From Opeltia flavorubescens (lineage: Eukaryota > Ascomycota > Lecanoromycetes > Teloschistales > Teloschistaceae): a stretch of 64,000 bases of DNA. Every line of letters begins with the position of its first letter. The stretch's first letter is position 1. The stretch spans positions 62,001 through 126,000 of the forward strand of contig KE546967.1 of NCBI GenBank assembly GCA_000442125.1, read 5' to 3'. The notes beneath the pieces are model-generated. The model ran no database searches. It was given only the letters and a program-made list of their open reading frames with translations, and was not told the DNA's origin. A program made the translations under genes and the position numbers. Shown here piece by piece: positions 1 to 64,000 of this stretch.

Positions 1-3000
1 TAAAAGAATATAGTTGGATGGATGTCAATCTGAAGGGGTGCCTGTCGCCGGGACGTGATCTTTTGATGAGGCTAGTAGGCTTCTAGCATTAGCCGGTTCA
101 AGTTTGAATGACAGCTATCAGACCTAAAAGAATTGTTAGGCGTGCAGCAATGATTCTCAATATGGGAGAATTATCGAGTCCGTTGTAATGGCCAGGTTCT
201 ACTAGAACCCTGCTATATGATGATGATCATATGCCGTGACGATACCACTATCGTCAGGAACGGACAAAACGTTCTCCGAAAACGAGCGTCCAATTCAGCG
301 ATCGTGCCCCGACTCGGTAAATCCATGTTCACGCCTGCAGCATCGGTGAGTCGATCAAGTTGACTCGTACTATCTGAAGACTATGTAGAATTTAATGGCT
401 AGTGGAGGGAATAACGAGATGATATTCACGGTAGTCATATTGGCCCATGGTCCTTGATTCTAACGTTGTTAGATAATGAAGCCTGAGGGGTGAATCACGA
501 TCTGCTTCATCAGATCGCCGGTAAATGGTAAACTCAAATCTAGAGTGGATGAAAATTCACTATGTTTGAATCCTTGGAGCTGTAATCATGACTGCATGCC
601 GACTCTTGCAATACTCTTCCATCTCGTTCAGACGAAGACGTCTTAGGCCTATATATGCTATATCCTCCTGACCACATTTCGCGAACATGCGAGTACTGGC
701 ACTAAATAATTCCCAGCAGTGAACCATATAGTGGCCTTGGGGATACCAATGCAACGATATCACGACTTCCCCTTGTAGAGATTTGTATCTATGGNCGAAA
801 GTCATCAACAATAGCACTTCTAGACTGAGCTTCTCTATTCATGATCTGAGGAGTGGGAACGGGCTATAGGTTGATCGAGTTATGAGACCACTGTCCATCA
901 CCTAGTAGCCAAATCATCTAGATCCTACAATCTGCGTGCTACACAACCTTCAGAACATTCTACATCATCTGCAATATCATGCTAAGTGGCAATGTGGGCC
1001 GTATTGATACCGTAGCGTGCCCATAAGGACACAATAGCCCCGATGAAACTGTAAAAAGTCTTTAAAATACTGTTACGATGCGGCAATCATGAGGTAAATC
1101 TCTCCATCCAAAATTTCATGACCTGAGACAAGATATAGCCTGCGACCTGGAAGCATATGTAATGATGACTCGAAATTCACCGAGCTGCATGGTTGAAGTC
1201 GAATTCAAATCTCCTGGAACTCAAAAGGGGTAATGAGAGTACTGATAGACATCAGTAGTATTTATGTGCATACATGAAGGAACTTTACGGAACACGAAGG
1301 TTTTGGGAAAACATGTCACGAAATATGCATGACGGTCATCATTATAAATAGGTTCTACAGGAATCACCAAGCCTCTCAAGAGTTTCCAATCACGTGCTAC
1401 CATTCCAAGTCTTCGATAGAGAGAAGACATGGCGAGCCCACAATGAAGTTTCCAAAAGCAACTCGCTCTATTGATTGGATTGTAAGTACCCGTGAAGTGA
1501 TTTGAAGATACGAGCAAGATGCCACATTAGTCGATCTATAGTATTTATTATGACAAGTGAACGCCCCTTTCACATTCTTATGAGATATCAGTGACTGCTC
1601 GGACTCAATGCCTTAAGTATGGAAAAGGGAAGACCTGAATCATCGATTGATAACATTCAAGCAAAAGGCCCGCGAGCCATGAATTTCCTCCTCTTTGCCC
1701 TTGCTAAGAAACTTTTCCTACAGATTCTCAGCCGCAAGCCATTCTCCAGCGATTTACACCTAAGAACTCGCAGCGAAAAGGTCCGTACTCTATGAAGTCT
1801 TAGAATTATAAATCTTGATTTCAGGGACAATAAAAAGGTCATGAGGTAGCAAAGTCCGCTCACTGGGTACTATTGTCCAATATTTTCCCCGTTCTCGCCC
1901 AACTCCGTCACGAAATCTTCTCTTAACTATTACATGGAGAAGACTAGGATGTGCTTTTAAGATCTACGCTACTATTTCGGCCATTATTTTTGTCAGGTTG
2001 GTCTTCGACGGTGTACCTCATGAGTCTCTCTGGCCTGCGATCTCGATCTCGAGCCCTAAAATTATGGACACGGTGTTGAACGATATCGTTGAAGTCTTGG
2101 TTATTCGCGTACATCTGTTAACGATGAGCTATGATGGAACGACAGTCTCGCATGAAATTCACTCCCCCTATCCTATATATCAGAATGAGATCGTTTCATA
2201 AGCTAGGTTTTGTAACAGAATTGTGAAGACTCCCAGCTCTTTTTCGGACTCACTTTGGGCAATGACTTGCCGCCAATATTGACACTGAATGAAGATCCAC
2301 GTTCTCAGCCGCCCGTGGTGAGACTAATGTCTTTAATAATCGATCTCCCAGATGAGCTTGAGAATGGTGAAACTTGCGGTCTAAAAAGTCAAGAGAAATC
2401 ATGTGAACATATAATCTTCATTCTCACACCTCTCATATCTCTCCACGACCGCATATCTCCACAAGGTTCGTATCTCAAATGGCGCTACCGTTTCACCTCA
2501 ACTAGCAGAAATTCATCACTCACAGCGTAAAAACTTTCCACGCGCAAACTAGATGATCAAAGGGCTCCAGGGGTTCACAAAACACCATTCAGATTATTCT
2601 TTGTCTATCTATCTTGAAAATACAAGCTAATAGAAATGTCCGCTGGACGATATTTCATTGTTTTGGTAAACTTCATTATGCAAACACTATAATTGGGCAC
2701 TTAGAATAATTCAAAGAGCGGTGGAGTTTGTTAAGGGTGTGTATATACTACGTAGGCAATGGTGTTTAGTTGCGATCGATGATAAATTTTCTACGGATAC
2801 CTCCAGTTATTGCATGCGGTGGCGGTCGCGGATTGATGTGAGAAATCAACACTGTAAACATTTACGTTTAAGTTTTCTATATATGAACAAACGCTGTAGT
2901 CTCCCAGGAGAGTGCGCACAATGCACATCTGCTGGTCGAGAGAATTTCACATAACAGGGACGAAAGGGGAATACGTCCCGCACTTGCGACTGTTGGTGGG

Positions 3001-3190
3001 ATCATCTTATACTCGCTGGCACGGGAGCTCGGGGCAAAGAGCCAGGATGTGGAACGGATCTTGGTAGTCAGATTTGGCGTTCCACATAAGCTTTCAAGTC
3101 TTCACGAAAGACCGTGGGAATAATGTTGCTGGTATATGTTGGAGTGTTTTTGTTGGAACATATATGGGGAGGAAGTCCATGAATTCAAGG
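1..3190. other. Gene-free stretch, no supportable gene
   Basis: Only short open frames (under about 100 codons) occur on both strands. None shows a recognisable motif, a signal peptide, or exon-like pieces that join across good splice sites. One ambiguous base sits at 794. The stretch may hold decayed genes or regulatory DNA, but I cannot support any call. Confidence 0.6.
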
Positions 3191-3418
3191 TAGCGTGCTC
3201 TTAAAAGAAAGAGGGGAGGACTTGGATCGAGAATTGAGAGTCCCAGGTATTGCTACCCTGACAGCATACCATTACAAAGGATGCACCGGCGTGGAATATG
3301 AGCTTTCGCACACGGTGTCCATGGAAAGTGACGCCCACTCTCCCAATCACGTTATATTCTCTCCAAGACGCCTTGACATCAAAACCCCAACCACCCCTCA
3401 CCGCCCCCCCAACATCCC

Positions 3419-4364
3419 TCAAGGATTCCAATCCAACCTCACCGCCCCCTCCGGCTGCCTCCACACAAACCCCTCCGGCATCTCCACCGCCCTACTCTTC
3501 AACCACCCCTGCAGAAAATCCCAATTCACACACCGATGAATCGTATTCCCATTCGGCGTCGGATTCTGATGATCCAGCACCCACGCAAACGGCATAACCG
3601 TAGTATCAAACTTGCACATAAGATTCTGCCTGATATAATCGACACAATGCTCATAATGCCTCTCGTACATCTCAGGGATGTCTTTTTTCTTTTGCTGGAC
3701 TTCGGGGAGGGAGGAGATGTAGTGGTCTTGCCAGATGTAGTGGAGGCAGTGGAGGGCGTGGGTGCCCATTGCGGTGGCGAGGTAGCCGCCGCCTGCGGAG
3801 GGGGGGTATTGGACGGAGGTTAGGTTGTGGCCGATGCGGAGGATGTCGGAGGCTGTGACGCTTAGTTGGCCGTCTGGTGGGTGGGGGTGTTAGTGATTGT
3901 GGGTTCTGGAAGAGGATTGATGACATACATTGCATTATACTGTGCCAGGCTTCTTCTACTGCGGGGGTAGGAGGACCTTTGAAAGGTGATTTGTACCACA
4001 GTGAGTATTTGAATCGTATGTCTTCATAGTCTGTGTCAATGGCATCGAGGACAGGGGCTAGTGATTAATCAGCGATAGTCCCGATCATTCAAGCCGATTC
4101 GGAGGCCTTACAGTATGCGTTGAATCTCTCAAGGCAGCTCCTCCGGCAACCCCGATTGATGTTTCTTATGTGAAGGAGTAGACTGACACAGACTATTATG
4201 CTGAGTCCGTGCAAAGTCCAGGAGATGATTTGTCCGAGGGATCGATGTGTTCTGCGCTCTTGATCGTATGTTGTAGAGCAGAGAGATTCCGTGTCTTCAT
4301 TCTCATCACGGGCTGCTGCCCTCTCTCGCGAGAGCGGAGAGTATGTGATCTTCTCGAACATCAT
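3419..4364 (-). CDS. UstYa-family (DUF3328) oxidase, candidate RiPP-cyclising enzyme
   Basis: Three exons (4364-4112, 4057-3929, 3873-3419) join in frame to give 278 residues. The N-terminus is cytosolic and charged. A single membrane segment lies around residues 48-66 (LHGLSIIVCVSLLLHI). The lumenal domain follows, starting with the family-typical YSPVLDAI and SPFKGPPTPAVEEAW stretches. Two HxxHC motifs, HALHC and HYEHC, are present; these pairs are the hallmark of UstYa/UstYb, which are copper-dependent oxidases that cross-link side chains of ribosomal peptides in the ustiloxin, phomopsin and asperipin pathways. Length fits the family (about 230-300 residues). It is divergent from the repeat-bearing precursor gene 980 bp away, which strongly suggests the two work together. 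The start is the first of two consecutive ATGs. Substrate and reaction are inferred. UstYa homologues also occur in non-RiPP pathways such as cyclochlorotine, so linkage to the precursor is the key argument. Confidence 0.9.
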
Positions 4365-5343
4365 GGACTTGCAAAGTAACCATCAATGGCGTCCGTTTGG
4401 TTCTACTCCAGCAAGGTACTGATCAGAGCATCGTCGCCTGTCCTCCAGATGTGCCAAACTCTGCGTAAGTACAAGCCCAGCAATGACGTGCCTTCTTCTC
4501 GAGGGAAAAGAGGGGTCGGCATCATGATTCTGTAAAGTACATTCCACTAATCATTCTTTCGAGACCGCAAGAGAATTTGATACGTACTTCTGCATCTGCC
4601 ATCGCTGCATTTCAAACCACCTCTTATCCATACGGTGTTATTGGATCGGATATCGAGGCAAACAGTTGTCACGGGCCGAAGCGACCGCATTGCAGTAGTC
4701 AGACTGTGATAACTTGCTAGTCAATTTAGTCAATCGAGCTCTCCCAACCCCTGACATTCACGATGCTGTGCATGACCGCGTACGCATTTTCGTGTGCTAG
4801 TCGGCCTAGATAGGAAACAGTAGGCTCTATTAGCTGTAGGATGTGAGACATCAGGCTATGCCGTCCAATCTAGGTCGACGTTCACGTCTCGTGGGCAGTC
4901 CATCAAGCGTATTCATTTGCCAAGGCTATAAAGGGTTGTGAGATGCCCAGCCGATCCAGCATCGTAGATGCTTGACCATTGCCATTACAGTTGCCTAATG
5001 CGGTCAGGGTTTGATGATGTCTTGCTTGACAGCATAAAGTACTGAATCCTGTTTGGAGAGCCCAAGTGGGGGGAAAGTTAGAGATAAGCTTTCTGTAGTG
5101 CTTCATAACCGCAATTCACATGCAGCGCGAATTCCTAACGCTGCATTTAAACATTCAGAATCGTCTCAATCATGCGAATGTTTCGTCATGGTTGGTTCCC
5201 CGCACGTTAGATCTCAGAAGTAGAAGCGATCAGTGATAAGAAGAACTCTCTGGCATATCCTACCAGTCTCTGTAGAACTACCATCCATCAAATCTCACGG
5301 TCGTAACATTCATTCAAGATCAGTACTCAGTGCAACCGTAAAC
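4365..5343. promoter_or_regulatory. Divergent promoter region between UstYa-like gene and RiPP precursor
   Basis: This 979 bp stretch separates the two divergent start codons and contains no plausible gene, only chance frames of up to 67 codons. It must hold both promoters, and a shared region would allow co-regulation. I did not identify a specific operator. Confidence 0.5.
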
Positions 5344-5921
5344 ATGCAATTCAAGGTTTTTGCTACCAGCCTGTTTGTGGCTTTGGCCGTGGCAGCGCCA
5401 GTGGCGCAACCAGCCAGTATGTCTCAGTCAAAGCGTTTGGGAACTACCAGACCCCAAGGGAATGTTAGCTAATGGTCTTTGATTTATTAGAATCTTTCGA
5501 AGCTGACTCGATGCTTGCTGTCGCACGAGACGCCGAGAGCTCTTACGCAACCAAAAAGCGAGGCAACTTCGAAGCTGATGGCATGCTCGCTGTTGCCAGG
5601 GATGCAGAAAGCTCGTATGCTACAAAGAAGCGAGGCAATTTTGAGGCCGATGGCATGTTAGCCGTTGCCCGGGATGCGGACAGCTCGTATGCTACGAAGA
5701 AGAGATCCAATTTTGAGGCCGACGGTATGCTGGCGGTTGCTCGCGATGCAGACAGCTCCTATGCCACCAAGAAGAGAGGCAATTTCGAAGCTGATGGTAT
5801 GCTTGCTGTGGCACGAGAGGCGGAAAGCTCGTACGCCACGAAGAAGCGTGGGAACTTCGAAGCGGATGGCATGCTTGCCGTTGCTAGGGAAGCCGAAAGC
5901 TCCTACGCTACCAAGGAGTAA
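5344..5921 (+). CDS. Secreted repeat precursor peptide of a dikaritin-like RiPP (UstA/PhomA-type)
   Basis: Two exons (5344-5416 and 5491-5921, intron GTATGT...TTAG) join in frame to give 167 residues. Residues 1-18 or so form a classic signal peptide (MQFKVFATSLFVALAVAA) followed by a short pro-region. The rest is six tandem copies of a 24-residue unit beginning FEADGMLAVAR and containing SSYAT. Copies 1-5 end in KKR, a Kex2-type processing site, and copy 6 ends in KE followed by the stop. An N-terminal signal, repeated cores and dibasic sites are the defining layout of UstA-type precursors. The intron also falls just behind the signal sequence. The single Tyr per unit, next to the processing site, is the natural target for the neighbouring UstYa-like oxidase. 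The exact core (SSYAT, YAT, or the whole 21-residue fragment) cannot be read from sequence. The stop codon overlaps a perfect splice donor (GTAAGT), so a further 3' exon is possible but not needed. Confidence 0.88.
5496..5918 (+). repeat. Six 72-bp coding repeats in the precursor gene
   Basis: Units start at 5496, 5568, 5640, 5712, 5784 and 5856, and the last is truncated to 63 bp. Amino-acid differences are confined to a few positions (Ser/Gly after Asp, Asp/Glu pairs in RDAE, RDAD or REAE, and Gly/Ser after KKR). Synonymous codons differ freely between copies. That pattern indicates selection on the peptide rather than a very recent DNA expansion. Confidence 0.95.
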
Positions 5922-7368
5922 GTCTAAAGTGAAGGGAGGGATTCTCGCTACTTTGGCATGGTCGTACGAGTTGAATATGTAGATGCCCTGTTCTGGAGCT
6001 CTACTACACCATTCCTGTGATCAACATAATGGATCGCGTACATAATCAGAGATCTTGCAATTTTGATCGAAATTATTTAAGCTCTCTAAATCACCTACGC
6101 GCAGCCTTGTATTCCATGATGTCGTGTTGATCTAGATGGGCATTTGACGCGTGCCAAAAGCCTAATCCCTTGGAGTAGCAGGTCTTACCGGATACGGAGG
6201 ATGCTCCGACAGCTGCTGAGGGGTGCAGCAAAAATCTATCAGGATTATCGACCACATAATACAGACGAATCTGCGCTTGTCATGCAAGCTTATCAGACAC
6301 CTTTCAAAATGGCAAAGGCTGGTCAGCTGTGAATGACCACAATACGCGAGGTCAACCGAGTTGGAGGTGGTAAAAGGTCTCGAGTGGAACGATTGAGCGG
6401 GCTGTGTTGTATGACTGCATGGGATTGCGTGGTGGATGCAAGCAATTCCTTGCGAACGAACGCACTGTGTCAGAATCGGGATTGTTGGTCAGTGTCGGCC
6501 GCTAGGAAGGATCTCTTTAACCTTATCTGGACGGCTTGTCATGTGACAGACGGATCCAACTTCTCCGACTTCGCCGTCCACTTGCCAGAGGATCCCATCC
6601 TGTTCCTTCCCATGCAAGCCCGCATGAAACACCAGCCGAAGCAGAAGCTCTGCAGTATGGCATACTACACAATCATTCCGTCAAACGTATCAAAGTACGG
6701 GTAGAACTTTATTTTCCAATTTAGGTTATTCAACCGTAGTGTCACCAGTTTGACTCAACGGGACCACCCGTGTGGAAAATCGTGTCGGTCAGTCGGCATC
6801 TTGGTTGAAACAGTCAACGAACCGCAAAGAGTTCTGCTTCAAACCTTAAATTGCCTAAGATCGCGATGGTGGTAAGCCGGACCGAGTCGTCGCTCGCTTA
6901 TCATTTGGCTGACCACACCACTTTCCATACAGCTCGGACCAATCATTTGAAAGAATCCTTCCCTTCCCACACGCTCTCTTTCCCGTCTTTTATACATCGA
7001 TTGTGCCTTGCTTGTGAAACTAGAGAGTAGACCATTTGAAAGCCACCATGTCTCAGCTTGCTGCACAATTGCGTCAATTACATCTCCTACAGCAAAGGCC
7101 ATGAATCTCTAGATCCTCGTGGACCATGGTCAATCGCCGGGTTCCTGCGGGAGGCACGGCCCAACCAAATGGCTTACTGGGCCGCCGGACGGCATGGAAA
7201 AGTGACGATGATGGGGGTGTATGGCCTTACGTGAAACTTGTACAACTTATTGTCTGACATGACGCTCTGATTTCCATGAACAAGCTTTGGATTTCGAGCA
7301 TTGAGACATCCTGATCTGAAAAAAATTCCCCTTTCGCGTTGATCCATCGCCCAAGGGCGAGCGAAATC
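5922..7368. other. Intergenic stretch, nothing recognised
   Basis: Contains the 3' end of the precursor transcript and the upstream region of the 7TM gene. Open frames at 6333-6704 (plus) and 6839-7102 (minus) have no recognisable motif or conserved-looking exon structure, so I do not call them. Confidence 0.5.
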
Positions 7369-8666
7369 ATGGTCTCTCACGATGGGGACCGGGGTCCTGA
7401 GTTTCTTGCTGTCTTCGGAACTGGAACCGCTATCGCAGCAATCGCTGTGATTTTGCGACTATGGGTCAGAGCTCGAATCATACGCAAAGTTGGGGCGGAT
7501 GACTGGATCGTTGCTGTTTCTTTGGTAAGAACCACAATGCGACATGCCTCCCTCGATCAAGCTACGAAATATCGAACATAGATGCAGTCTTGGTGTCATT
7601 GGCTAATGCCACTCCATTGGGACAGGTCCTTGTATTTGGGTCACTGGGCTGCATGTCTGCATCTGTACACCACGGCCTTGGCAGGCATACCGACGCCTTG
7701 ACCCCGAAACAAGTCTCGACGTCTCTCAAAATCCTTTGGGCCGGGTTCTGTGTCACTCCCTCTGCTGAAGCGACCGCGAAGATTTCCATCACTATTATGC
7801 TTATGCGCATCACCACGAGTGCTAAGTGGAAGTGGTTTTTCATCTCGCTTATTGTCCTCATGATCGCGATCACCATAGCAAGCCTGTTCGCAATTTTGAT
7901 GTCATGCTGGCCTATTGGACTTCTTTGGGACGCGACATTGGATGGTTCTTGCAATGTCCTGGAAAGGACAGTCGTTATATACTTCCAGGGTGGTGAGTAA
8001 TACCCGTCATTACAGTACTCATCAATGCTGAGAGGTTGACAGTCATGGCGGCTGGCTACGATGTCATTCTTGCAGCATCGCCCGTATTTCTGCTCTGGAA
8101 TGTGAAAATTAGTTGGTTCGATAAGTCACTTCTCTGCGGATTACTTGCGCTCGGCTTCTTGTAAGTGTGGATACTTCCGGCGGCTTATCAGAAAACTTAC
8201 ATGAATGGGAAATAGCACAAGCGCAGCTGGTATTGTCAGAACAGTCTACACACCCGAGTCTGAAAATACGAATGACCCTACATGTCAGTGCTTGAAACCC
8301 TATTCGTTACGGTAAACTGACCAGATCGACTAGATGCTGTACTGGATTTTCTAATCTGGAAGACGTAAGTATATGTCCTCGCTTGCTCCGACATAGCTGA
8401 CAGTTTCCAGCGTCGAGCTTCCCCTCAGTATCATTGTTGGATGCCTCCCCACTCTCCGCCCACTCTTCAACAGGTCGAAATCAGACCGAACACGCCCATG
8501 GGCAAAGCAAGAAGATACATATGTTCTGACTGATCCTCGATCCGACCACAAGATCAGAAAGACTACTTCCATCGAGATGGATGTATCGGGTGATTCAGGC
8601 GTCTCATCTAGCAATCTCCATGCAATGCCGTACAAGAATGCCTGGGATATTGAAGCCCGAGCTTAG
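7369..8666 (+). CDS. Pth11-like / fungal rhodopsin-domain integral membrane protein
   Basis: A multi-exon gene starting at the ATG of MVSHDGDRGPEF. Coding pieces, in order, include an N-terminal helix plus LWVRARIIRKVGADDW, the family-typical basic loop ending in a DDW motif. Next come GHxxD-like HHGLGRHTDAL, several helices (ISLIVLMIAITIASLFAIL), and the CWPIGLLWDATLDGSC loop before the next helix. ISWFDKSLLCGLLALGFL, SAAGIVRTVYT, and IEMPLSIIVG-like VELPLSIIVGCLPTLRPLF follow, and the protein has a polar cytosolic tail. This is the usual order of the fungal rhodopsin domain (PF20684-type) 7TM family, many of them receptor-like. Four or so introns are visible with GTAAG-type donors. Ligand and role are unknown. 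It sits between a RiPP cassette and an alcohol dehydrogenase but there is no direct evidence that it belongs to either. Confidence 0.8.
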
Positions 8667-9164
8667 GAATATTCCATGCTTTGATGAGGAGCTCGGTATA
8701 AGGATGGAAAGGAGGTCTATTGAATTATGGGGTTGTGGTATATACATTGGGAGAAGCAGACATGCGACTGCAGTGAACTGTCAATATTCTGTAAATCAAC
8801 ATAGCTGAATATATGTACACTATGAAGAGATTCTCACAGGCTTCTACCTCCAAACCAGAATAGATGTGCAGTAGGCAGATTGAATTGGATCTCATCTCGG
8901 CTCTAAAGACTTGTGGTAGCAGGGAACGGCTGGGTACAGCAGCAGGCAGCGTAGGGTTGGTTGCTCCCTGCATCTCTATCAGACATCGGCCCCACTTTCC
9001 GGCATAATCCAGGCACAGCAAAGTACATATCATATGCTTCATTTCCAATTCTCCGTTGAACTGAATAGCTGTGATTCAAGACTCATCCTCATAACAGTCA
9101 ACCAAACAAGCTCCCTGCGCTCGGAGCTACATTAACTGACCGAATCTCACCCGAATTCTACATC
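8667..9164. other. Intergenic, promoter side of alcohol dehydrogenase gene
   Basis: About 500 bp with no supportable gene. It contains the 3' flank of the 7TM gene and the upstream region of the dehydrogenase. Confidence 0.5.
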
Positions 9165-10332
9165 ATGGATTCATCTTCTAAAGGTATCAGCTTCACCGTC
9201 TACAAAGGCTCGCCGGATCGACGAATTGTCAAAGGGACTACCCATAGAGACGGGCTCGCGAAAGATGAAGTCCTCATCAGAATCACACACAGCAGTCTCT
9301 GCGGTACGGACGAGCATTACCTCAGCACAGACATGGTCCTCGGTCATGAAGGTGCCGGAGTAATCGAGCGCCTAGGCTCGGAAGTCAATGGATTAGCAAT
9401 GTAAGACAATGCTCCCCTTAATACCCAAAAGAAACCGTCAATGAAGATTGCCCATATATACCCTCAATGTCCAAGCATCATCAACCCAACCCTATCCCCA
9501 AGAATATTCACCTGGATACTCGATCCACCCCATACTAAAAACCTTGTGCAGAGGGGACAACGTCGCCTTCGGTTACCAACGCTCCTGCTGCGGCACCTGC
9601 ACCCAATGCCTCTCATCCCTAGAACCCTTCTGCCCCTCCCGCGGTTTCTACGGCTTCACAGAAAAAGACATCGGCTCAATGGCCACCCACATCCCCTTCC
9701 GCTCCTCCTTCGTCTACGCAATCCCCCCCTCAATCTCCAACGGCTCCGCCGCAGCCCTAATGTGCGGAGGCGCTACAGTCTTCAACGTCTTGGACATGTT
9801 CAACATTAAACCGACGGATAGGGTGGGTGTTGTGGGTGTAGGTGGCCTGGGGCATCTTGCAATACAGTTTTCGGCGAAATGGGGATGCGAGGTCGTTGTG
9901 TTTTCTGCGACGGAGGAGAAAAGGGAGCAGGCGATGGGGTTTGGAGCGAAGGAGTTTTATGTGACTACGAATGGGGTGGAGAGGTTTGAGGGGATTGAAC
10001 CGATTAATCACTTACTTGTTACGACGAGTCAGCAGATCCCCTGGGATCTTTATATTCCTATCATGGCGCTTCCGGGGACGATATATCCTTTGACGGTTTC
10101 GAATGAGGATTTGAAGATCCCGTATCTTCCGTGGCTGTTTGGGGGATTGCGGATTCAGGCGAGTATTGTGGCTCCGAGGGTGATTTATCGACGGATGTTG
10201 AAGTTTGCGGCGTTTCATGGGATAGGGGCGGTGTTGCAGGAGTATGGGTTGGATGAGGAGGGGATTGAGCAAGCGATGGGGGATTTGAGGGAGGGGAGGA
10301 TGAGGTATAGGGGGATTCTTTGTGCGGAGTGA
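9165..10332 (+). CDS. Zinc-dependent NAD(P)-alcohol dehydrogenase (cinnamyl-alcohol-dehydrogenase type)
   Basis: Two exons (9165-9400, 9552-10332; phase 2 junction reconstructs GLAIGDNVAFGY) give 338 residues. Catalytic zinc ligands are visible: Cys in SLCGTDEHYL, His-Glu in VLGHEGAGVIE, and Cys in ALMCGGATVF. The structural-zinc cluster CCGTCTQC...PFC follows. The dinucleotide fold carries VGVGGLGHLAIQF. The order and the LMCGGATVF form point to the CAD/YahK-type medium-chain dehydrogenases that reduce aldehydes with NADPH. It is convergent with the MFS transporter gene and lies in a stretch with ATP-grasp and PLP-decarboxylase genes, so a tailoring role in a small pathway is possible. Amine catabolism or aldehyde detoxification are alternatives. 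Cofactor and substrate are inferred from family only. Confidence 0.9.
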
Positions 10333-10671
10333 TGAACAGAATAGTTATTACTTTGAGTTCTTCATTCTTGGAACAAGTCTGTGTATAGTCTCGGCGATGA
10401 GTTACGCTGCATGTTTGCAATTATTTCTGAAACAGTGACCAAGTTGGCAGGAAACATGGAAGACGACTTTCGTCTGACCAGTGATGGCACCGAAGTAGAA
10501 TATCTTTCGTATTTCACGACTTTGATGGACTTGTTGAGAGAAAAAGAAAACGCGGTTACAAAGGCCCTTTTGCGATGTTCATCTTCCGTGTCCGCTCTAA
10601 TGTACATGCTCCCAATCCGTTCCCCCAGCCAACATCCCGTTTCATCCACCTCTCCCCCCAACTAGAAGAAT

Positions 10672-12825
10672 CTAAACCTTCTTCCAAATACTCGGTCCAA
10701 ACCTCTCCAACCTCGACCAAAGCAAAAACACCCCCCCAACACCCAACACAACCCCATTCCAAAGCTGCAAACCCATCCACCCCCCCTCATCCAAAATCGC
10801 CCCCGCAATCGGCGTCCCGAGCAACAAACCCAACCCACACATCCCTGTAATCATCCCCAGACAACTCCCCAGCACCTGAAGATCGTCCGTTAGGCTGAAA
10901 ACAACAGGCCCCCCGAGGGAGACAAAAGCCCCCGACACAAAACCGTAGAGAATAGCAAACACAATAATCCCCGGCGTACTATGAACAGCAATCCAAACCA
11001 ACACCAGCGCCGTCGCCGCAAACGAAAACAGCGTATGTAAATTAATACTCCCCAAATACCGATCCGCCAACCACGTCGGCACCAACCTCCCCGCAAAACT
11101 CCCCGCATTAGTAACCACAAGCACATACGCCGCCAAATCCCTCTCCGTCCCACACTTCTGCAGCGCAAACAGCTCGATATAGAAAAACGAGATATATATC
11201 CCCATATACCCGAAAAGCATACCAAGCATGACGTGGACGAAAGACCAATTTTTGAAGAGGGAGATGTCGATGAGGTGTCGGAGGGTGGTGGGGGGAGTGC
11301 GTTCGCGCATGCTGAGGATGGAGGGGAGGAGGAAGAGGAGTTGGAGGAGGGCGATGAGACGGGTGGACCAGGGGAATGTGAGGTGGGGGAGGGTGTGGCG
11401 GAGGAGGGNGGGGAGGATGATACCACCTAGAAAAGCATTTAGCTAGCATCAACAATCAATCCGCGTCAAGAATCGATACAGGGGAGTGGAAACCCGAAAG
11501 GAAGAACGAACGCAAAATGCCATCCTCCACAGCGAAAAAAATATCATCTTCCACCTCTCTCCCCCTTTCCCCACGTTCCGACAAAAGAAGACGCAGAAAG
11601 AAAAAGCAAGCGCAGGAGAACAACAAGAAAGCCCAGATTCAAACCCAGGTTCGAATGAAGGCTCAAAAGGAGGAAGAGGAAGAGAGAGAAATTGCAGGCA
11701 CACTTACCGAGACTACTCCCCACACTGGCGATTCCGAATGCCCAACCCCTCCTCTCGCGGGGGAACCACTGCCCTATCACGCTCGCGCCGGGGAGATATA
11801 GACATCCGCTTCCCACGCCGACCATCACACCTAGAACGCCACCTCGTCGTCAGCAAAAACTATCCTCATCTCATGCCTTTCAATTCTCACCCCCTTCCAC
11901 GGTCGTTTCCACTCCCCACTCCCTCTTCTCCCCTCCCCACTGTCTTTCCCCCATCCTCAAAATCTTCCCCTTTTCCCCGAACCAGACAGACACCCCCACC
12001 TGAAAACCAGAAATATTAAACTCACCTTGACAAAGCACCAACTCCCAATACCCCCCACACCACCCCACCGCCACCATCCCCCCCACATTCAGCCCCGCGC
12101 CCACCCATATCAACGTTCGAAAATATCCTAAATCGGAAATAGGGCCGGCGAGGAAGGCTGTTAGGAATAAAAGGCCGGATTGGAGGGAGCCGATCCAGGC
12201 GATTTGGGAGGCGGAAGGGAGGTTTGGGGACTGTGGAGGTGGTTGGTGGTGGTTGGTTTGAGGATGAGGGAGAGGGAGAGGGAGAGGAAAGGTGGAGGAA
12301 GGGAGGAGGGGAGAACGGGGTTAAGGGAAAAGGGGGTTTACGCTGGTGTGAAAGAGGGGATTCGTTGAGGAAGGAGAAGTGTAGAGGGTTTGAAAGGAGC
12401 CGTAGGAGGAGGATAGACCCCTGGATTGGAAAAGGGGGTTAGTAACTAATGGGAGGACAAAGAAGGGGGGAGAGATGAAGGCAGCGGGTGGAGATCGAAA
12501 GGGAATGGGGGCAAAGGGGTATTTCCAGACGCGGAGAGAGGGGTGCATTAAGACTAGGGTGGGGGGTTTGTTGCTTTCTTTAGCGTTGTCGCTGCCTTTC
12601 CGGTTTTTTTTTGCCCTTTTATGTTTTTCTTTCTTTCCTCGTATGTTTTTTGGAGATATTAAGTGAAAGATATTTGACTTACCAAGTCGTGAAATTAATC
12701 CCAAAGGCACCGGCGACTTGTAACCAGGCAGTAAGGCCCGGCGTGGGGATATCATCCACGGATGTTTCGATGTCGAGCGTTGCTGTCGACGAGTCAGGTG
12801 ATGATAATTTCTCTGGGTCGGTCAT
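10672..12825 (-). CDS. MFS transporter, monocarboxylate-transporter (MCT) type
   Basis: A multi-exon gene starting with MTDPEKLSSPDSS at 12825. The soluble acidic N-terminus leads into PTPGLTAWLQVAGAFGINF, the family-typical first helix. The next exons give SYGSFQTLYTS, then SQIAWIGSLQSGLLFL with LAGPISDLGYFR. They continue with GVGSGCLYLPGASVIGQWF and RRGWAFGIASVGSSLG. The last exon (from about 11430) holds helices 7-12, including NWSFVHVMLGMLFGYMGI, AGRLVPTWLADRYLG, and a C-terminus ending in WKKV. These are the conserved elements of fungal MCT-like permeases, often found in metabolite clusters as importers or exporters. An ambiguous base at 11409 falls within coding sequence. It is oriented back-to-back with the PLP decarboxylase side and convergent with the dehydrogenase. 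Substrate unknown. Confidence 0.85.
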
Positions 12826-13065
12826 CGTGCGGGAGATCAGTTAGATTATCCGGTTTGGTTGGTGGAGTCTAATTATTTTGCAAATATACAACAACAACGT
12901 TGGATTTTTGGGCCGAATGTATTTTTCGTACTTTTCATTGTGAAATCCTTCCCCATCTTGCCTCACAAGCAAACCAGTCACACTTCCTTCTTCCGCATCC
13001 TTCCTCCCCCAGCACACTTCTGTCTGCCTAGAAACGGCACAGCACGTACACCCTCAGAAAATTGT

Positions 13066-13395
13066 AGCAGTGATGTATGGAGTACTATAGCTGACTACAT
13101 GAAGCTACCTCTCAAATCCGCCCCACCAGGATCGATTTTCCGCCCGAGATACATATGTCTCAGACGTCTCATCTTCCATCAATGGAAAATGCGCAATCGC
13201 ACGGCACGCTCACACCCTCAAGAAACCTTGTATTAGTGGATGTATGGAATGACCATAGCTGACTACATATGTGACTAAGTGATCTTCGATCCACATCGTC
13301 CATGGATCTCTCAGCCCGAGAGATGGCATGTCATGTCTCAGATGTCTCACATACCCATGTCGCGAAATCGCAATCGCACGGCACGGGGATCGGCC
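13066..13395. repeat. Diverged direct repeat, about 170-bp period, upstream of MFS gene
   Basis: Two blocks (about 13066-13215 and 13235-13395) share, in the same order, GATGTATGGA, ATAGCTGACTACAT, CCCGAGA...ATGTCTCAGA-GTCTCA and CAATCGCACGGCACG. Spacing and substitutions differ, so the duplication is old or degraded. No coding potential. Confidence 0.65.
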
Positions 13396-13501
13396 CGTCC
13401 TGCCTTCCATTTCACCCATTGGCCTCAAACCCAAAAACCCTAACCTAAATCTAAATCTCACCCGATGTCCACCTTCCCCGTTCGGAACCCCTCCAAAAAA
13501 T

Positions 13502-14899
13502 TCATCCCGGTACCTCATGCACCTTGACCTCATCCACAAACCCCCTTAGCCTATCCCTCGTCTCCGCCGCCAAGATCAAACACGCAATACTGTTTTCTCC
13601 CCTCCGATCATGACACCAGCCACATATCACCATCCTCCCCTCCTGAAACCTATCCGCAAAGGCTCGCAAGAAATCCTCCCTCGTGCCTTTAAGGTACAAG
13701 GGGAAGAAAAGCACCGCTTCATGCAAATGTCTCCGAAGGGAGAAATGTCCCCGCAGTAAGCCGAGCGGATGCGACCCTCCAACCCGTGCGTTGAGATCAA
13801 CGACGACGTGTTGACCGTTGGCGTCAGTCATGATATCTGCGCTTATAGGTCCGTAGTACCCTTTGCTATGGACATAACCTGCCATATCCTCCAAAATGGG
13901 CCTGAACTTTTCCTTCAGAGAATCTTGCTGCTGATAAGAAATATACCCACCAGCCCAATGCCCGCTCTCATCCATAATCTGCTCAGTGCAAGACTGGAAC
14001 ACCATCTTGCCCGCTCTAGTCACGAAGAAAGAAAGAGAAGCAGTTGCGCTATCAATCATGGATTGGAGCACTAGACTACAAGGCCAAAGATGCTGATTCG
14101 AAGCGTTGAGCTGATGGAGCATACGCTCAACTTCCGGAGCGAGAGTTTCAAGTGCTGTACTTCGATGAGCTTCTGTACGTATGAGGAAGGTCCCCTGCCC
14201 CGATAAAGCTTGGGGCATTTTTACGGCGAAGGGTAATGGTTGTTCGGCTATCGGTTTCAGCATCCGTGCTACTTCTGCATGCACGAGCTCCGGGTCTTGG
14301 ATCTGGTGAGGTTCGAGTATAGTGTCGATGACTGTGGAGGTTGGTGTGGGGAGGCCCGAAAAAGCTAGAGCTCTCTTGGAAAGAACCTCGTAGTGCGCTT
14401 CTGGATCGACGTCGTGAGCGAAGCTGAGGAGACAGTCCATGGGACTTGTGATTGCGATTTTTGCTTTTGGAGGGAGGAGGATATCTTTTGCATTTGTAAC
14501 GAAGGACAGTTCTGGTCGCTGGGTTGGATGGAGCTGATGGAAAACTTGATCGGCATCGACTTGATGAGGTCGCTTGTCTTCTGTGAAGAGCTTCTTTTGC
14601 GAATTTTCAAGGTCGTTTGGATCGAGGTCGAATAGTATTAGAGGCATTGGTCCTGCAACGAATCCAAAGAGTTGGGGCACGATTTGGAGGAAGAGCCGAG
14701 CGAGTTCATCGCCATCGTGTGTATGGTTTAGTGGTGATTGGTATGTGAACTTCTTAGAAAGTGGGACGCCATCGCTCATTTGGATATCGGCGGTCGGAAC
14801 GGCGTAGACGAGGACGATCGGTCCATCTGAAGGTCCATCTAGAATGTAGAGTTCATCTAGCGTGGTGTCTAGGTAGATATCTTGCACATTTGAGTCCAT
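13502..14899 (-). CDS. Fungal ATP-grasp family enzyme
   Basis: A single open frame of 465 residues from the ATG at 14899. The N-terminal third (starting MDSNVQDIYLDTTLDELY) is a preATP-grasp-like region. The middle carries KMPQALSGQGTFLIRTEAH, which fits the ATP-binding lysine and glycine-rich loop. Further on are SADIMTDANGQHVVVDLNARVGG (Asp368-Leu-Asn370) and SHPLGLLRGHF. The DLNAR element corresponds to the metal-binding D/E-x-N of ATP-grasp ligases. Such enzymes activate a carboxylate as acyl phosphate and couple it to an amine or thiol. The gene is divergent from the tandem PLP decarboxylase 767 bp away. An amine maker next to an amide-bond maker suggests one pathway. Relatives in filamentous fungi are mostly uncharacterised, so the substrate is unknown. 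Confidence 0.82.
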   Translation of the reverse strand: MDSNVQDIYLDTTLDELYILDGPSDGPIVLVYAVPTADIQMSDGVPLSKKFTYQSPLNHTHDGDELARLFLQIVPQLFGFVAGPMPLILFDLDPNDLENSQKKLFTEDKRPHQVDADQVFHQLHPTQRPELSFVTNAKDILLPPKAKIAITSPMDCLLSFAHDVDPEAHYEVLSKRALAFSGLPTPTSTVIDTILEPHQIQDPELVHAEVARMLKPIAEQPLPFAVKMPQALSGQGTFLIRTEAHRSTALETLAPEVERMLHQLNASNQHLWPCSLVLQSMIDSATASLSFFVTRAGKMVFQSCTEQIMDESGHWAGGYISYQQQDSLKEKFRPILEDMAGYVHSKGYYGPISADIMTDANGQHVVVDLNARVGGSHPLGLLRGHFSLRRHLHEAVLFFPLYLKGTREDFLRAFADRFQEGRMVICGWCHDRRGENSIACLILAAETRDRLRGFVDEVKVHEVPG

Positions 14900-15666
14900 C
14901 TTTTTAGAATCATAGATGTTTCAAATGTCCGGTTGGAAGTGAGTAGATGTGGGGATAACGACCTTGCCGAGTTACGTAGGGCTTGTAGTGAGCACGTTTG
15001 AGTTCGAAAATGAGGGAATGCCCCAGTCCGCCATGTAGCGGCGTAGGCCAAACCACTTGTCAACGCCAAAAATGAACGGTATTGCGAATGGGTATCGTGC
15101 CGCTGTTGAGCGGTATCTCTACGCGTGCGCCTGCAGGTCATATGCAAGTGTCCTGCAGGCGGTTGATAGACTTCCGATTCGCCAATTCACGTCCGAGCAT
15201 GTGGTTCAGCCGTGTCGATCCTTCACTGATGTAATCACCATCGCACTCCGATTGTCTCAATCCATCGCAGCCGTTGATTCTTTCTGATGGAATTGAGCTA
15301 GCGAACCTTCTGGCAGACTGACATTCGCGATACCGCTAGCATTTGTCTCAGTCGTAATTTCACCTGCTAGGGGATTCCGTACGAATCCTCTAGAAATGGA
15401 TGGACAGAGGTGATCTGCGGGGTAGGCCCAGAATTACAACCAGGTGATGTCGTCTAGATTCCACAGCATTTTGTGATACCACTGGAGTGTGAGATTCCGA
15501 GCGCTTTCACCGGTCACCGGATTTTAGCAACGAGCAGAGTTTGAGAACTCGCAGTCGGCGCGCACGTCTCACATTGCATGAGGATTGATCATGAATAATT
15601 CGACTCTTCGCTGCCCTGCCAAACAATAGAAAACGCCTGAGGATAGCCTTCCACGATCAGCCAACA
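14900..15666. promoter_or_regulatory. Divergent promoter region, ATP-grasp / PLP decarboxylase
   Basis: This 767 bp lies between the two start codons without a supportable gene. It must carry both promoters. No specific binding site was identified. Confidence 0.5.
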
Positions 15667-18639
15667 ATGACGGAGATCGCCTTGGTTTCCGAGGAGCCTG
15701 GCAGACACCTCGATGGACTTAAAAAGGGACGAAGCATCCACGCGGTGCGTGAGGTTGCAACTCCCGAAAACGACTCTCCTCCCCTGAACGAGATTGAGAA
15801 AGCTTTTGAAAGGCGCGGACAATGGATTGAAGATCCCGTCTCGTCGCAATGGGATGTCAAAAGGCCAGACATCTCCGCCAAACTGAAAGAAATCAACGAA
15901 CTCTACAACCAATGGCGCACTTCCGGACCCGGTCCGTTCAGCCATTTCTCAGATCCCCTATGGCTGCAATCTTGCGAGGTACTTCGAGACGTCGGCTTAC
16001 CGTGGTTAAACAACAATCTCAATCTTCCAGACGATATCGATCCCAGCTGGCCATTCCAATTTAAGCGTTTTGAGAGGGAGGTAGTGATTGCCAAGGGCGC
16101 ACGAGTTGGTGCCAAAGATGTGTCAGGATATATCTGTACAGGAAATGAGGGGAATTTGTATGCGATTCGGGCTCTGCAACAGGAATTGCGACGGCAAAGA
16201 CCGGCGCAACGACCTCTGCTGGTGGCCAAATTCATGAATCCGGAGATCTTGAGGACTGCTGCGCAGATTTTTGGTTTGGAGACTTTCCAAATCGGGGATG
16301 ACTGGAAAAATGCAAGGAACGAACTCTCCGGGTTGACTACTGGCAGTCGACCTATCGTCTTCGCAGCCACTTTGGCGAATGAGAAAGGGCATTCAGATAA
16401 TTTCGATGAGATTTCTAAGCTCGCGACCGTCTTTCAGCTGTTCTTACACGTTGACGCATCTCGAAATTTCGATTTTGTGACAGCTCTTTCCGCATCCGCA
16501 AGACAGCGACTAGGCATACCTCAACTCAAACTTCTTCATCCAAATCTCGATGAGCCTCCACCCACATTTGAGGAGCCAACAATATGCGCTGCAACGATCG
16601 TGGCCGCGGGGATGAATTGTACAAACCCACCTCCAGTCGTGGTTATGAGGCCAAAAGACCTTGGAAATCCTCTATCACGCAAAGTTGAATATCTCAAGGG
16701 TTCAGATAACACTTTGTGTGGCTCGCGTGACGGTATAGGTCCTTTGTTGATGTATATTCAAGAAGAGCGTTTTGCTACCAATACACGGAAGAAAATCTAT
16801 GCACAATGCTTGGCCAACCACCAGAGGTTGATCAGCAAGCTGACTGATCATAAAGTAACGTTCCGGGCTTCTGCTATGTCATTGGATATCGTCGTTTACC
16901 CTGTACGACCAGATGTTGGCTCCTTGGAAAAAGAGACGGGTCTTCACCCACTGGACGATGGCGGGTTTATGCTTAGTATCCAACCGAGCGTGACCGCTGA
17001 GCAGATTGACTTTCTGGTGGAAGTTCTATGCGGAAATGGACTCGATGATGGCTTTTTAGTGCCATCTCGCCCAAATTTTTGGATGAACTACACTGTCCCG
17101 GAGGCTTTGATAAGTCATCTTCGTTCCACTATGGATAGTTGGCATCATTCGGCAAAAAGCTCCGGTGGGTATTGTCTGAATCAAGCAACTTATGCCGCCA
17201 TCGGACCAATCATTGGACCATTCCTCCCAGTATCTATTCCCCATGACTGGACAAGACTCCGTGGGGTCGAGATTCTCGAAGCTCGCAAGTCAAGCTTCGG
17301 TCTTTTGAAAGAGGAGCGTGAAGCTTTTGCTGCACGCTTCACCACAGGAAGTACCATGGGCAACCGAATCGGATTGTACACCGCGCTGGAGTATTGCCCA
17401 AACGCATGTATCTACTACTCCGAGTCCATCCACTACAGCATTAAAAAGATCGTGAGTGATAATGATATCTTGACCCGTCGATGGACTGATGGAGGACTAC
17501 CTCGATTCATGGAGATCGCTGCAGACGATCAAGGATGCATGATTCCTGAAGACCTAGCCAAGAAAGTAGCGGAAAATCAACATCTTTATGAAAGTCAAGG
17601 CCAACAGCACGAGGTGATCCTTCTCGTGACCATCGGCACAACATTCACAGGCGGGCGAGATAATATTTTCGGCTTACGTCAAGCGCTGGACGATGCTGGT
17701 CTGAGGGTTTCCTATATCCACGCGGACGGAGCCTTGGATTTCGGGTTCTCCTCCGATTCCGTATCTCTCGGGACGCCAGAAACAATGACCAAGAACGATC
17801 TTCCAGTTGTCCAAGGCATCACGATGAGCCACCACAAAGCTTTCGGATTCATGGTATCCGGAGAAGTCATATGCTACAGTCCAAGGAACCAGCAGCTAGC
17901 GCACGTGGTTGCTGAAGTTGATCCTCGAGTCGTGTTTGAGACTTGGCTCTTCCAGAAGATGTATTCGCCCTCGGATTGGGAAATAGTGAATCAATATTGT
18001 AAAGCAAATGCAAGACAACTTAGATCCGGCATGGAAGCTGCTGGATTGAGGATAAGGTATAATGAAGAAAGCTACATCACTGTGATGGAGCGTCCGCCAG
18101 CGTGGATTCTACATCAATACCATCTGGCCCCTGAGGGAGGCTGGGTGCATTACTTGACTATGCCTCACATATCTCCAAGCGCTGTTGATGAGTTTGTCGG
18201 GACAATGGCTCTCTTCGATCGAACCTATATAGCGGTCTTACGCCAGGCTGAGGCGAATTTGAACATGATCATCACCCAAGGCGTCAGTATTGTACGTATC
18301 TCATCTCTGGATTTTGCGGACTTTTCGAAGGTTTTTGCTTTCTATGAACGGACTCGCTCAATGGACTCCGAGTCACACAAGGAGAGTGAGAAATGTGGGG
18401 AAGAGGACTTCATATTGCGGTTCGCTCATAGCGCTGTATCGTTTGCGGCGCTCGATCAGGCTGGCGAGCCGTTGATATTGTTCCTATCGGAATCCCGGCT
18501 AGATAAGAGGATATACTCACAGCCAGTGTTGATACGCCGTAATCTCTGCAGTCACTTGATTGGGGTCCATTATATTTTCTCCGATGCCTTAGATACGCTC
18601 GCGGATGAGCTAGGCCTCGTTCATGTTCATGACCGCTAG
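15667..18639 (+). CDS. Tandem group II PLP-dependent decarboxylase-like protein with degenerate N-terminal copy
   Basis: One uninterrupted frame of 990 residues, about twice the usual length. Residues 50-450 resemble a group II amino-acid decarboxylase: TGNEGNLYAIRAL near 157-170, LHVDAS at 260-265, GSRDGIGPL after it. However, the expected SxHK lysine region reads TIVAAGMNC (Met316 in the Lys position by eye) and the cofactor-stacking His is also missing. Residues 480-860 form a second, intact copy. It has FTTGSTMGNRIGL (558-569), YYSESIHYS with His589, YIHADGALDFGF with Asp687, and MSHHKAFGF with Lys724, the Schiff-base lysine. A roughly 120-residue C-terminal extension follows. The active half most resembles histidine/aromatic-type decarboxylases, which make biogenic amines. 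The dead half may stabilise the fold as an internal pseudo-dimer. Divergent from the ATP-grasp gene. Amino-acid substrate not readable. Confidence 0.88.
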   Translation: MTEIALVSEEPGRHLDGLKKGRSIHAVREVATPENDSPPLNEIEKAFERRGQWIEDPVSSQWDVKRPDISAKLKEINELYNQWRTSGPGPFSHFSDPLWLQSCEVLRDVGLPWLNNNLNLPDDIDPSWPFQFKRFEREVVIAKGARVGAKDVSGYICTGNEGNLYAIRALQQELRRQRPAQRPLLVAKFMNPEILRTAAQIFGLETFQIGDDWKNARNELSGLTTGSRPIVFAATLANEKGHSDNFDEISKLATVFQLFLHVDASRNFDFVTALSASARQRLGIPQLKLLHPNLDEPPPTFEEPTICAATIVAAGMNCTNPPPVVVMRPKDLGNPLSRKVEYLKGSDNTLCGSRDGIGPLLMYIQEERFATNTRKKIYAQCLANHQRLISKLTDHKVTFRASAMSLDIVVYPVRPDVGSLEKETGLHPLDDGGFMLSIQPSVTAEQIDFLVEVLCGNGLDDGFLVPSRPNFWMNYTVPEALISHLRSTMDSWHHSAKSSGGYCLNQATYAAIGPIIGPFLPVSIPHDWTRLRGVEILEARKSSFGLLKEEREAFAARFTTGSTMGNRIGLYTALEYCPNACIYYSESIHYSIKKIVSDNDILTRRWTDGGLPRFMEIAADDQGCMIPEDLAKKVAENQHLYESQGQQHEVILLVTIGTTFTGGRDNIFGLRQALDDAGLRVSYIHADGALDFGFSSDSVSLGTPETMTKNDLPVVQGITMSHHKAFGFMVSGEVICYSPRNQQLAHVVAEVDPRVVFETWLFQKMYSPSDWEIVNQYCKANARQLRSGMEAAGLRIRYNEESYITVMERPPAWILHQYHLAPEGGWVHYLTMPHISPSAVDEFVGTMALFDRTYIAVLRQAEANLNMIITQGVSIVRISSLDFADFSKVFAFYERTRSMDSESHKESEKCGEEDFILRFAHSAVSFAALDQAGEPLILFLSESRLDKRIYSQPVLIRRNLCSHLIGVHYIFSDALDTLADELGLVHVHDR

Positions 18640-61988: not shown

Positions 61989-64000
61989 GTTGACTCCAAT
62001 GCCCTCGACGATAGTGTGTTACAATGGAGATAGACACCAAAATGTTCAATATCACTTGTATATAGCTTGCTGAATGTGACGGCGCGATCCTTCGACCAAA
62101 GTAACAAATTGGAAGACGAGCCGAGGACTTCGTGGGGTCCTGCGTATTCCTAGATGGGATGAATGGGGGGTGGGAAACCCCAGGTCTTATACTCAGGTCG
62201 GGTATTGTACTTTCATTTTAGGCAAGAATCGGTTGCGATACCGTGCCGTCTCACCTGCGTTCTTCGTCTCGTATCATTAGAGTCACAGCGAAAGCTCAGC
62301 TTCGTGACAGAGTGAACCAACTAGATTGATGAACGAGACAATCTCGAGCGCTTAAGGGAGGATGCCATGTGGGACCGGAACGTACTCATTAGCCGCCCCA
62401 ATCATGGTGGGAGCACACTCCGTTGGTATTGACGTGCATCGACGCCCCACCCGCAGGCTGCCGGGGTCCCTAACAACACATCGTCGTCTTGGGACTCCTC
62501 ATTTCTGGGACTCCCGCATTTTAGCGGCGCACGGTCGGCTATTCGGTACCACGGCATTCGCATAGATTTCTTTTAGAGGACTGGCGAAAAAGCGTTGCGA
62601 CGCAATGTCACAGGAGTGAGATATCGAACCCAATATGGGATTTGTCAGGCGTGCCGACGTTTGATTCAGATTGAAATTGGATTGGCTTATGTTGAATCCT
62701 ACCAAACAACGCCGTGGCGGAAGTTGGAGACGTCGATTGGCTGCGCTTGGATAAAGGATGTTGATGCTTGCCCGTTGCCTGACTGTGGTTGTTTTGTTGC
62801 TGATCCCTTCATGGGAGCCGCAGGAGGAGTCGCCGCGCCCCAGCGAACACCTTTTAGATGGACAAGGCCCTGCGACGGAGCATCGCCTGATTGAGCAACA
62901 TGTGTAGTCAGATCTTTGTCGCATTGTCGGACCGCAATTCAAACAAACGTGCCAATAGTAGAAGGACGAGCTTATTCATCCTTATCGAATCTTTCTCGAA
63001 CTTTTCTTGAACATGATTCTTGGAACGCATAATTTCTCAATCAGCACAGCATGTATTGACAAATTGCTGGTATAATCGACGCACGACACGTAAGCAATTC
63101 CCAAGAGCCGCTGTTGTGCAACATCGAAAGCGTAGACATAGACGAGCCAGTAGACCTTTCTTTCAATGTATCAAGACGAGCATTCTGTGGTCGCCAGCTG
63201 ATTCCGACTGAATATCTAAGATCCTATCAAAGGTCCGAGCGCTAGAACATCAAGAGAACATGAGAATGAAGCGACGATACCTGCTGGGAGTTGAAAGTTG
63301 AAAGTTGAAAGACATGTAATGATTCGCGACTAGAACATCAAAAATCGCGCAAACGTGAAGATCCTCATCCGCAATGGCTATCTGCCCCTCAAAGGAGAAC
63401 ATCCCAACAGATCATACACGTAATCGCTGAGCTGTTGATAGCTCAATGATTCTATGAAGATGGCGTCTCTTCTCATGAGATCTTCATTTGGAGCAATAGT
63501 CATAGGATTTCTGTCACCGCGTTCCAATATCAATAATCATTAGAAGACAATCAACATTTCTAAAGGTCGACGATACATTCCAGGGGATTGCAAGACTATA
63601 TGAACGAAGTGGAATCAAGCAACGCCCAGCTATATCATCCCGCAAGCCCATCCCGTATTGCCGCTCTTTGGCGAAACCTTCAAGCAGCTTGGCGAAGCTT
63701 ACTTTCTCACACGTGGTAGGAGCGTGCAGATAAATATGGTGGAGTTCAGTGAAGATAACATCTTGATATGCTCGAATCATATCATGTTGGTGGTTGTAGA
63801 TTTACGTAGGATTAAGTTATGTATACATAACGATGTTCTCAGGATGACATCATCGCCGGTGTTTCGCCGCTAAAGATAGGGCACAACCCTACTTTATCTC
63901 TATCTTTGCAGGCTATCTCGACCATTCTGGCGAAATATTCAACACTGTCACGGTCTTGTGGGAGCTGCGAAATGCCGTAAGTATATAATGTCTATATCAT
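61989..64000. other. Terminal stretch without a supportable complete gene
   Basis: Upstream of the sugar transporter. Frames at 62499-62942, 62595-62894 and 63514-63873 have no motifs. A short tandem GTTGAAA repeat occurs near 63290-63310. A possible internal exon (63911-63978, between a CAG acceptor and a GTAAGT donor) reads YLDHSGEIFNTVTVLWELRNA and may belong to a gene running off the window, but nothing upstream confirms it. Confidence 0.4.

Follow-up and report, generated by a model that had tools for sequence, protein, structure and literature searches.

A conserved repeat precursor divergent from a UstYa-family gene in Opeltia flavorubescens and the modified peptide that it may encode

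What is made by a small gene of near-identical repeats that lies head to head with a UstYa-family gene? The pair occupies positions 3419 to 5921 of the window, the 64,000-nucleotide stretch that we analyzed (positions 62001 to 126000 of contig C3 in the 34.4-Mb, 23-contig genome of Opeltia flavorubescens), and this span, proposed in a first-pass annotation, agrees to the base with both of our gene models. We consider it moderately probable that the locus encodes a UstYa-modified ribosomal peptide (RiPP) in which a block beginning with FEAD is the recognition sequence and SSYA is the core. Fast-changing toxins of fungi are the best-known UstYa-type peptides. The sequence comparisons below point to the pair as an old, still uncharacterized family of modified small peptides.

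The repeat precursor and its UstYa neighbor

The precursor gene lies on the forward strand at 5344-5921 and encodes 167 residues. A splice scan combined with stop-to-stop frames gave one clean model, with exon 1 at 5344-5416, a 74-bp intron at 5417-5490 (GTATGT donor, TTATTAG acceptor end), and exon 2 at 5491-5921. Exon 1 encodes the N-terminus MQFKVFATSLFVALAVAAPVAQPA, which resembles a secretion signal on two grounds, its hydropathy (mean of 2.53 over residues 10 to 21) and the similar N-termini of several precursor relatives. Downstream, six units of the form FEADxMLAVARxAxSSYAT run from 5496 to 5912 on the same strand (positions worked out by hand on the spliced model), with the consensus FEADxMLAVAR(D/E)A(E/D)SSYAT and a period of 24 residues. 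Units 1 to 3 (5496-5552, 5568-5624, and 5640-5696) and units 4 and 5 (5712-5768 and 5784-5840) are each followed by KKR, a Kex2-type dibasic site that splits the tandem repeats after five of the six units; unit 6 (5856-5912) ends SSYATKE-stop and lacks KKR. SSYAT is present in every unit. The spliced model thus bears out what had first been read here, namely, a signal-like start and six 24-residue repeats, five of them followed by KKR and all containing SSYAT.

TRF reported a 72-nt array at 5495-5915, with 5.8 copies and 78% matches. Any two of the six 19-residue units are identical at 17 to 19 of 19 positions, and divergence over the 15 unit pairs amounted to a pS of 0.84, which is saturated, versus a pN of 0.05. 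In the SSYAT part, differences summed over these pairs came to 42 synonymous and 0 nonsynonymous, and the FEADxMLAVAR half had a pN of 0.045 within this gene. Strong purifying selection acts on the repeats. Near-identical units with saturated synonymous sites indicate a translated, selected repeat rather than a recent DNA duplication, and saturated pS together with low pN indicates that the peptide sequence has long been kept in the precursor's frame. A search of the organism's own genome found no second copy of the precursor beyond the two exons. The repeat protein also matched CENP_C_N (7.6e-7, 29.3 bits, cut-off of 27) and, below cut-off, RsgA_N (1.2e-5); we took both as chance matches of a repeated, low-diversity sequence. 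The CENP_C_N score, which is above the Pfam cut-off for the 5344-5921 protein, could mislead automatic annotation.

The UstYa/DUF3328 gene (3419-4364, reverse strand) encodes 278 residues in three exons (4364-4112, 4057-3929, and 3873-3419), separated by introns at 4111-4058 and 3928-3874 with the consensus donors GTAAGG and GTATGT, a splice model picked by consensus donor among 15 open combinations. The Pfam UstYa match (E value of 6.5e-45) and the HxxHC motifs at residues 166 to 170 and 200 to 204 confirm the earlier assignment of this divergent neighbor to the UstYa family with two such motifs. Residues 46 to 64 form a membrane-helix-like stretch. In an alignment of 49 UstYa relatives, the His and Cys residues of HxxHC and two further Cys residues were invariant or nearly so, and a search of solved structures with the window protein returned weak matches only (best E value of 0.044). 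The precursor therefore has an adjacent, divergent DUF3328 gene with a double HxxHC motif. By the two gene models, 979 bp separate the divergent start codons (4365-5343), and this stretch is likely a shared control region.

Conserved blocks and paired genes in other fungi

When 8000 candidates were scored against the single precursor sequence, eight proteins had E values of 0.01 or less. A seven-sequence profile returned 26 precursor relatives at E values of up to 1 (all but one below 1e-6), the first eight included. These relatives span four classes of Pezizomycotina; their sources include Gyalolechia and Acarospora (Lecanoromycetes), Setomelanomma and Alternaria (Dothideomycetes), Cudoniella (Leotiomycetes), and Moelleriella and Monosporascus (Sordariomycetes), and Hypoxylon is a further named source.

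The precursor family keeps two blocks at fixed spacing, SSYA and FEADxMLxV, the second of which was missing from the earlier description of the locus. We measured their conservation with one-sided anchors rather than a regular-expression census of units because such a census presupposed both blocks. With the window left out, and with apparent conservation inflated because the relatives were gathered by similarity to these very sequences, the anchor FE[AS][DSN] found 51 sites in 24 of the 26 relatives, with Tyr at position 17 in 39 sites and within positions 14 to 19 in 42. Tyr was absent from that range in the other 9 sites, at some of which the gene model runs off. The anchor SYA, subject to the same inflation, found 49 sites in 25 of the 26 relatives, with Phe at position -15 in 41. 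Positions 11 to 14, between the two blocks, are variable, and both Ser residues before the Tyr are nearly invariant. At the position after SYA, T stands in 22 of the 49 sites and E, S, N, K, G, or another residue elsewhere, with none in two sites. Because this residue is variable, we take SSYA as the conserved core; the first-pass proposal of a core around SSYAT or YAT stands as to a conserved, Tyr-containing core and fails as to the Thr. That such a core should be conserved across species had been set beforehand as one test of the proposal, and it is kept in relatives from four classes. In two relatives (P0005 and P0006), extra residues stand at the place of the window's intron and would fit read-through of an intron at the same position.

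Orthologous precursor/UstYa pairs, suggested at the outset as something to look for in related genomes, were found in two named genomes and one metagenome pair. A UstYa search returned 103 proteins among 457 candidates, and a partner was seen for 3 of the 26 precursor relatives. Two of the three pairs have consecutive locus tags and contigs of equal size, those of Cudoniella acicularis (precursor G7Y89_g2821, UstYa G7Y89_g2820) and Moelleriella libera (precursor AAL_02371, UstYa AAL_02372); in the metagenome pair (P0119 and P0056), both contigs are 4596 long. The other 23 relatives had no UstYa match on a longest contig of equal size, in a weak comparison that used one contig per 90% cluster, and this result could stem from the one-contig-per-cluster display, from genes that were not modeled, or from a true lack of the partner.

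The three partner UstYa proteins are 51 to 56% identical to the window's UstYa, and the paralogues in its own genome are 22 to 39% identical to it (13 rows). We built a FastTree phylogeny of 110 rows and 211 columns, which left out 4 of the 13 own-genome rows (those with fewer than 75 columns) and in which the C22 paralogue gave no row. The Cudoniella partner groups with the window's UstYa in a 22-member clade (support of 0.98), and all three partners fall with it within one 98-member clade (support of 0.91). An own-genome paralogue, own_L024 (96 filled columns), also lies inside the 98-member clade, which speaks against orthologs splitting off cleanly. Bogoriella megaspora supplies the nearest single relative (0.91), and many close relatives come from lichen fungi. 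Outside fungi, 44 prokaryote-genome and 22 viral-contig stretches fit the UstYa pattern, and none was confirmed as a relative.

The genome itself holds 19 UstYa matches, which we read as about 15 genes, and a repeat precursor of another type lies in 2 of the 13 other 10-kb regions that hold such matches. On contig C2, a second repeat precursor with a signal-like start (L023:3098-3601, forward strand; about C2:212997-213500) has about ten units of the (S/T)LPEPGVGFKR type that lack Tyr, near UstYa matches at C2:213867-214079 (reverse) and C2:215922-216131 (forward). A short one on C22 (L025:5792-6034, reverse strand; about C22:245291-245533), with DEPGRPWKR, PEPGSPWKR, and DEPGAKW units, adjoins a UstYa match at C22:244369-244803. 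An alpha-pheromone-like precursor with WCYRPGQQC and WCLRPGQTC units lies at about 1168 kb on C7 (L030:1435-2187, reverse strand).

A proposed route to the peptide and its alternatives

Starting from the genes, the repeats and their selection, the conservation and spacing of both blocks, and the adjacency in other genomes, we infer the following processing and chemistry. Judging from its N-terminus, the repeat protein would enter the secretory pathway, where a Kex2-type protease would cut after KKR, as the sites suggest, and trimming would follow to leave units of about 21 residues. The UstYa protein, if it resembles its family, would be membrane anchored, and its two copper-binding HxxHC motifs would face the lumen. 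It may recognize the FEADxMLxV block and oxidize the SSYA end, which lies a set distance away; the likeliest outcome is a link from the Tyr side chain to either of the two Ser residues before it and not to the residue after the Ala. The flanks would then be removed and SSYA-type products released. The calculated [M+H]+ values of linear SSYA, SSYAT, and GNFEADGMLAVARDAESSYAT are 427.182, 528.230, and 2174.966, and a cross-link would lower each by 2.016. We expect the partner of the Tyr to lie upstream because the two Ser residues are nearly invariant, whereas the residue after the Ala varies and at some sites is missing. The recognition block and the Tyr-Ser link are proposals drawn by analogy.

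The precedents are as follows. DUF3328 proteins are described as membrane anchored and dependent on dioxygen and copper, with two coppers at HxxHC(x)nHxxHC, and in one of them, CctR, the motif was demonstrated to bind two coppers (PMC12435403). In the ustiloxin, phomopsin, and asperipin pathways, such proteins link Tyr side chains to beta-carbons (PMC6514808, PMC9233826). Kex2 is reported to cut UstA into pieces of 13 to 14 residues that unknown proteases trim after cyclization; on either side of the UstA cores stand conserved ED and KR, which the enzymes are thought to read (PMC6514808). Plant BURP cyclases are reported to use a recognition block before the core, in which a Phe is flanked by charged residues, and a four-His copper site similar to that of UstYa (PMC12186524). 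The burpitides are thus analogous to our locus in having a repeated recognition block before each core, a charged-flanked Phe, and a four-His dicopper site (PMC12186524, PMC12435403), but BURP enzymes are an unrelated family from another kingdom.

The RiPP reading is supported by the selected repeats, the UstYa protein with both HxxHC motifs, the adjacency in other genomes, and the fixed spacing of the blocks; counting against it are the absence of tyrosinase and peptidase genes from the ORFs scanned around the pair and the 23 of 26 relatives for which no UstYa partner was seen. Since conservation is as high in the FEAD block as in SSYA, that block could itself belong to the product. The mature UstYa-modified peptide would then be the whole unit of about 20 residues, of the GNFEADGMLAVARDAESSYAT type, either linear or bridged between its conserved halves. 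Conservation of both halves at fixed spacing, with a pN of only 0.045 in the FEADxMLAVAR half, fits this arrangement, but we regard it as unlikely: the known UstYa-made cores, YAIG and FYYTGY, are short, the 13- to 14-residue pieces of UstA reportedly go on to lose their flanks (PMC6514808), and the variable stretch between the blocks suits a spacer.

Quite unlikely, in our judgment, is an unmodified, Kex2-processed signaling peptide of a pheromone-like kind, with the UstYa gene there by chance or acting elsewhere. Precursors of alpha-type pheromones have the same architecture, signals are typically conserved deeply, and 78% of the repeat precursors in Umemura 2020 have no DUF3328 gene nearby (PMC7329392). 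However, this genome's own alpha-pheromone-like precursor sits elsewhere, on C7, pheromone precursors are reported almost never to adjoin DUF3328 genes (Umemura 2020, PMC7329392), and the adjacency of precursor and UstYa recurs in two other named genomes. Identity with an alpha-pheromone of the WC..PGQ.C type was rejected, as such a peptide is absent from the repeat protein and present once on C7. We give little credence to a third course, in which UstYa carries out hydroxylation, dehydrogenation, or halogenation on the peptide and forms no ring; DUF3328 proteins do hydroxylate and halogenate besides cyclizing (PMC12435403), but the Tyr in the core is the residue that known RiPP-acting UstYa enzymes cross-link (PMC9233826, PMC7329392). 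The RiPP reading with SSYA as core can also be carried further, to a possible though doubtful picture of an ancient one-enzyme family across four classes of Pezizomycotina. FEADxMLxV, at a fixed distance of 14 residues, would position SSYA for a dicopper UstYa that links Tyr to an upstream Ser, and the constancy would be explained by a product that is an internal fungal signal and not a fast-evolving toxin.

Relation to known systems and surrounding genes

The asperipin-2a locus of Aspergillus flavus (aprA, aprY, aprR, and aprT) likewise combines a repeat precursor with a single UstYa homologue, and its few genes also include a transporter and a reductase (PMC6514808); here, reductase-like ADH and MFS frames lie 3 to 6 kb from the pair and are at most candidate members of the pathway. 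The asperipin-2a core is FYYTGY rather than SSYA, and unlike that system, the locus described here has no repeat-to-repeat core diversity and carries a conserved FEAD block before the core. With ustiloxin and phomopsin it shares a secreted repeat precursor, Kex2 sites, a UstYa protein with two HxxHC motifs, and a Tyr in the core. Those systems, however, need a tyrosinase and have more than one UstYa; the scanned ORFs hold neither a tyrosinase nor a second UstYa. Their core starts with a Tyr linked to a downstream Ile, whereas here the Tyr is internal, after two Ser residues, and the core has no Ile. Because the scanned ORFs hold no tyrosinase or cluster peptidase, we do not class the locus as a dikaritin of the ustiloxin/phomopsin type. 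In the epichloecyclins (gigA, Epichloe), also made from a repeat precursor, an internal Tyr is reported to link to an upstream residue, the direction that we propose, but the partner is an Ile at the core start and the products are nonapeptides of a different sequence (PMC9233826).

The KEP types of Umemura 2020 and Le Marquer 2019 have the same precursor architecture, and DUF3328 genes lie near 1758 of 7878 KEPs (PMC7329392). None of the conserved cores that Le Marquer 2019 names in its main text includes SSYA, and SSYA, SYAT, and FEAD do not occur in the main text of Umemura 2020, its supplement and logo figure excepted (PMC7329392). The FEADxMLxV/SSYA motif was not found in the literature searched, supplementary tables excepted. 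The kind is already known (a KEP with DUF3328, dikaritin-like); this family stands out by its conservation. A pair kept constant in lichen fungi, relatives of Alternaria, Helotiales, and Hypocreales would offer a minimal, well-defined UstYa system, whose two conserved blocks and variable spacer give direct predictions of what the enzyme reads in its substrate. The family also offers a searchable sequence pattern for lichen fungi, in which the text of a 2025 survey reports UstY homologues, with no repeated precursor in two main cluster groups (PMC12048977).

The scanned ORFs were those of at least 75 residues, 62 at C3:42001-62000 and 54 starting in window positions 1 to 16000, compared with Pfam at E values of up to 1e-5. 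Besides the UstYa gene and the chance matches of the precursor, the Pfam matches were HET, two fungal rhodopsin-like frames, an alpha/beta hydrolase, a zinc ADH, an MFS transporter, and a methyltransferase. These 116 ORFs yielded neither a tyrosinase nor a peptidase family, in a scan that short exons may escape, and within the same size limit the first-pass statement that the surroundings hold no P450 and only one UstYa is correct. Its further statement that no methyltransferase lies nearby was an artefact of the window edge, as one ends at window base 13. The 3' end of this SAM-dependent methyltransferase gene (window 1-13, forward strand) belongs to a frame at C3:61273-62010 with its stop at window 11-13 (Methyltransf_25, 2.3e-6; Methyltransf_11, 1.1e-5), and its first exon probably begins at C3:61092. 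The methyltransferase and UstYa genes converge, 3.4 kb apart, and the former is at most a candidate member of the pathway.

A KEP-like flag at 9405-9806 was dropped as an off-frame overlap with the ADH gene. Farther along, the window holds an ATP-grasp protein frame at 13505-14920 (reverse strand; Pfam, 3.7e-5) and, at 15595-18636 (forward strand), a frame of 1014 residues, two stretches of which resemble PLP decarboxylases (NCBIfam, 1.2e-37, below the curated cut-off), although it has no Pfam match at 1e-4. An MCM2 replication helicase gene lies at 53453-55855 on the reverse strand.
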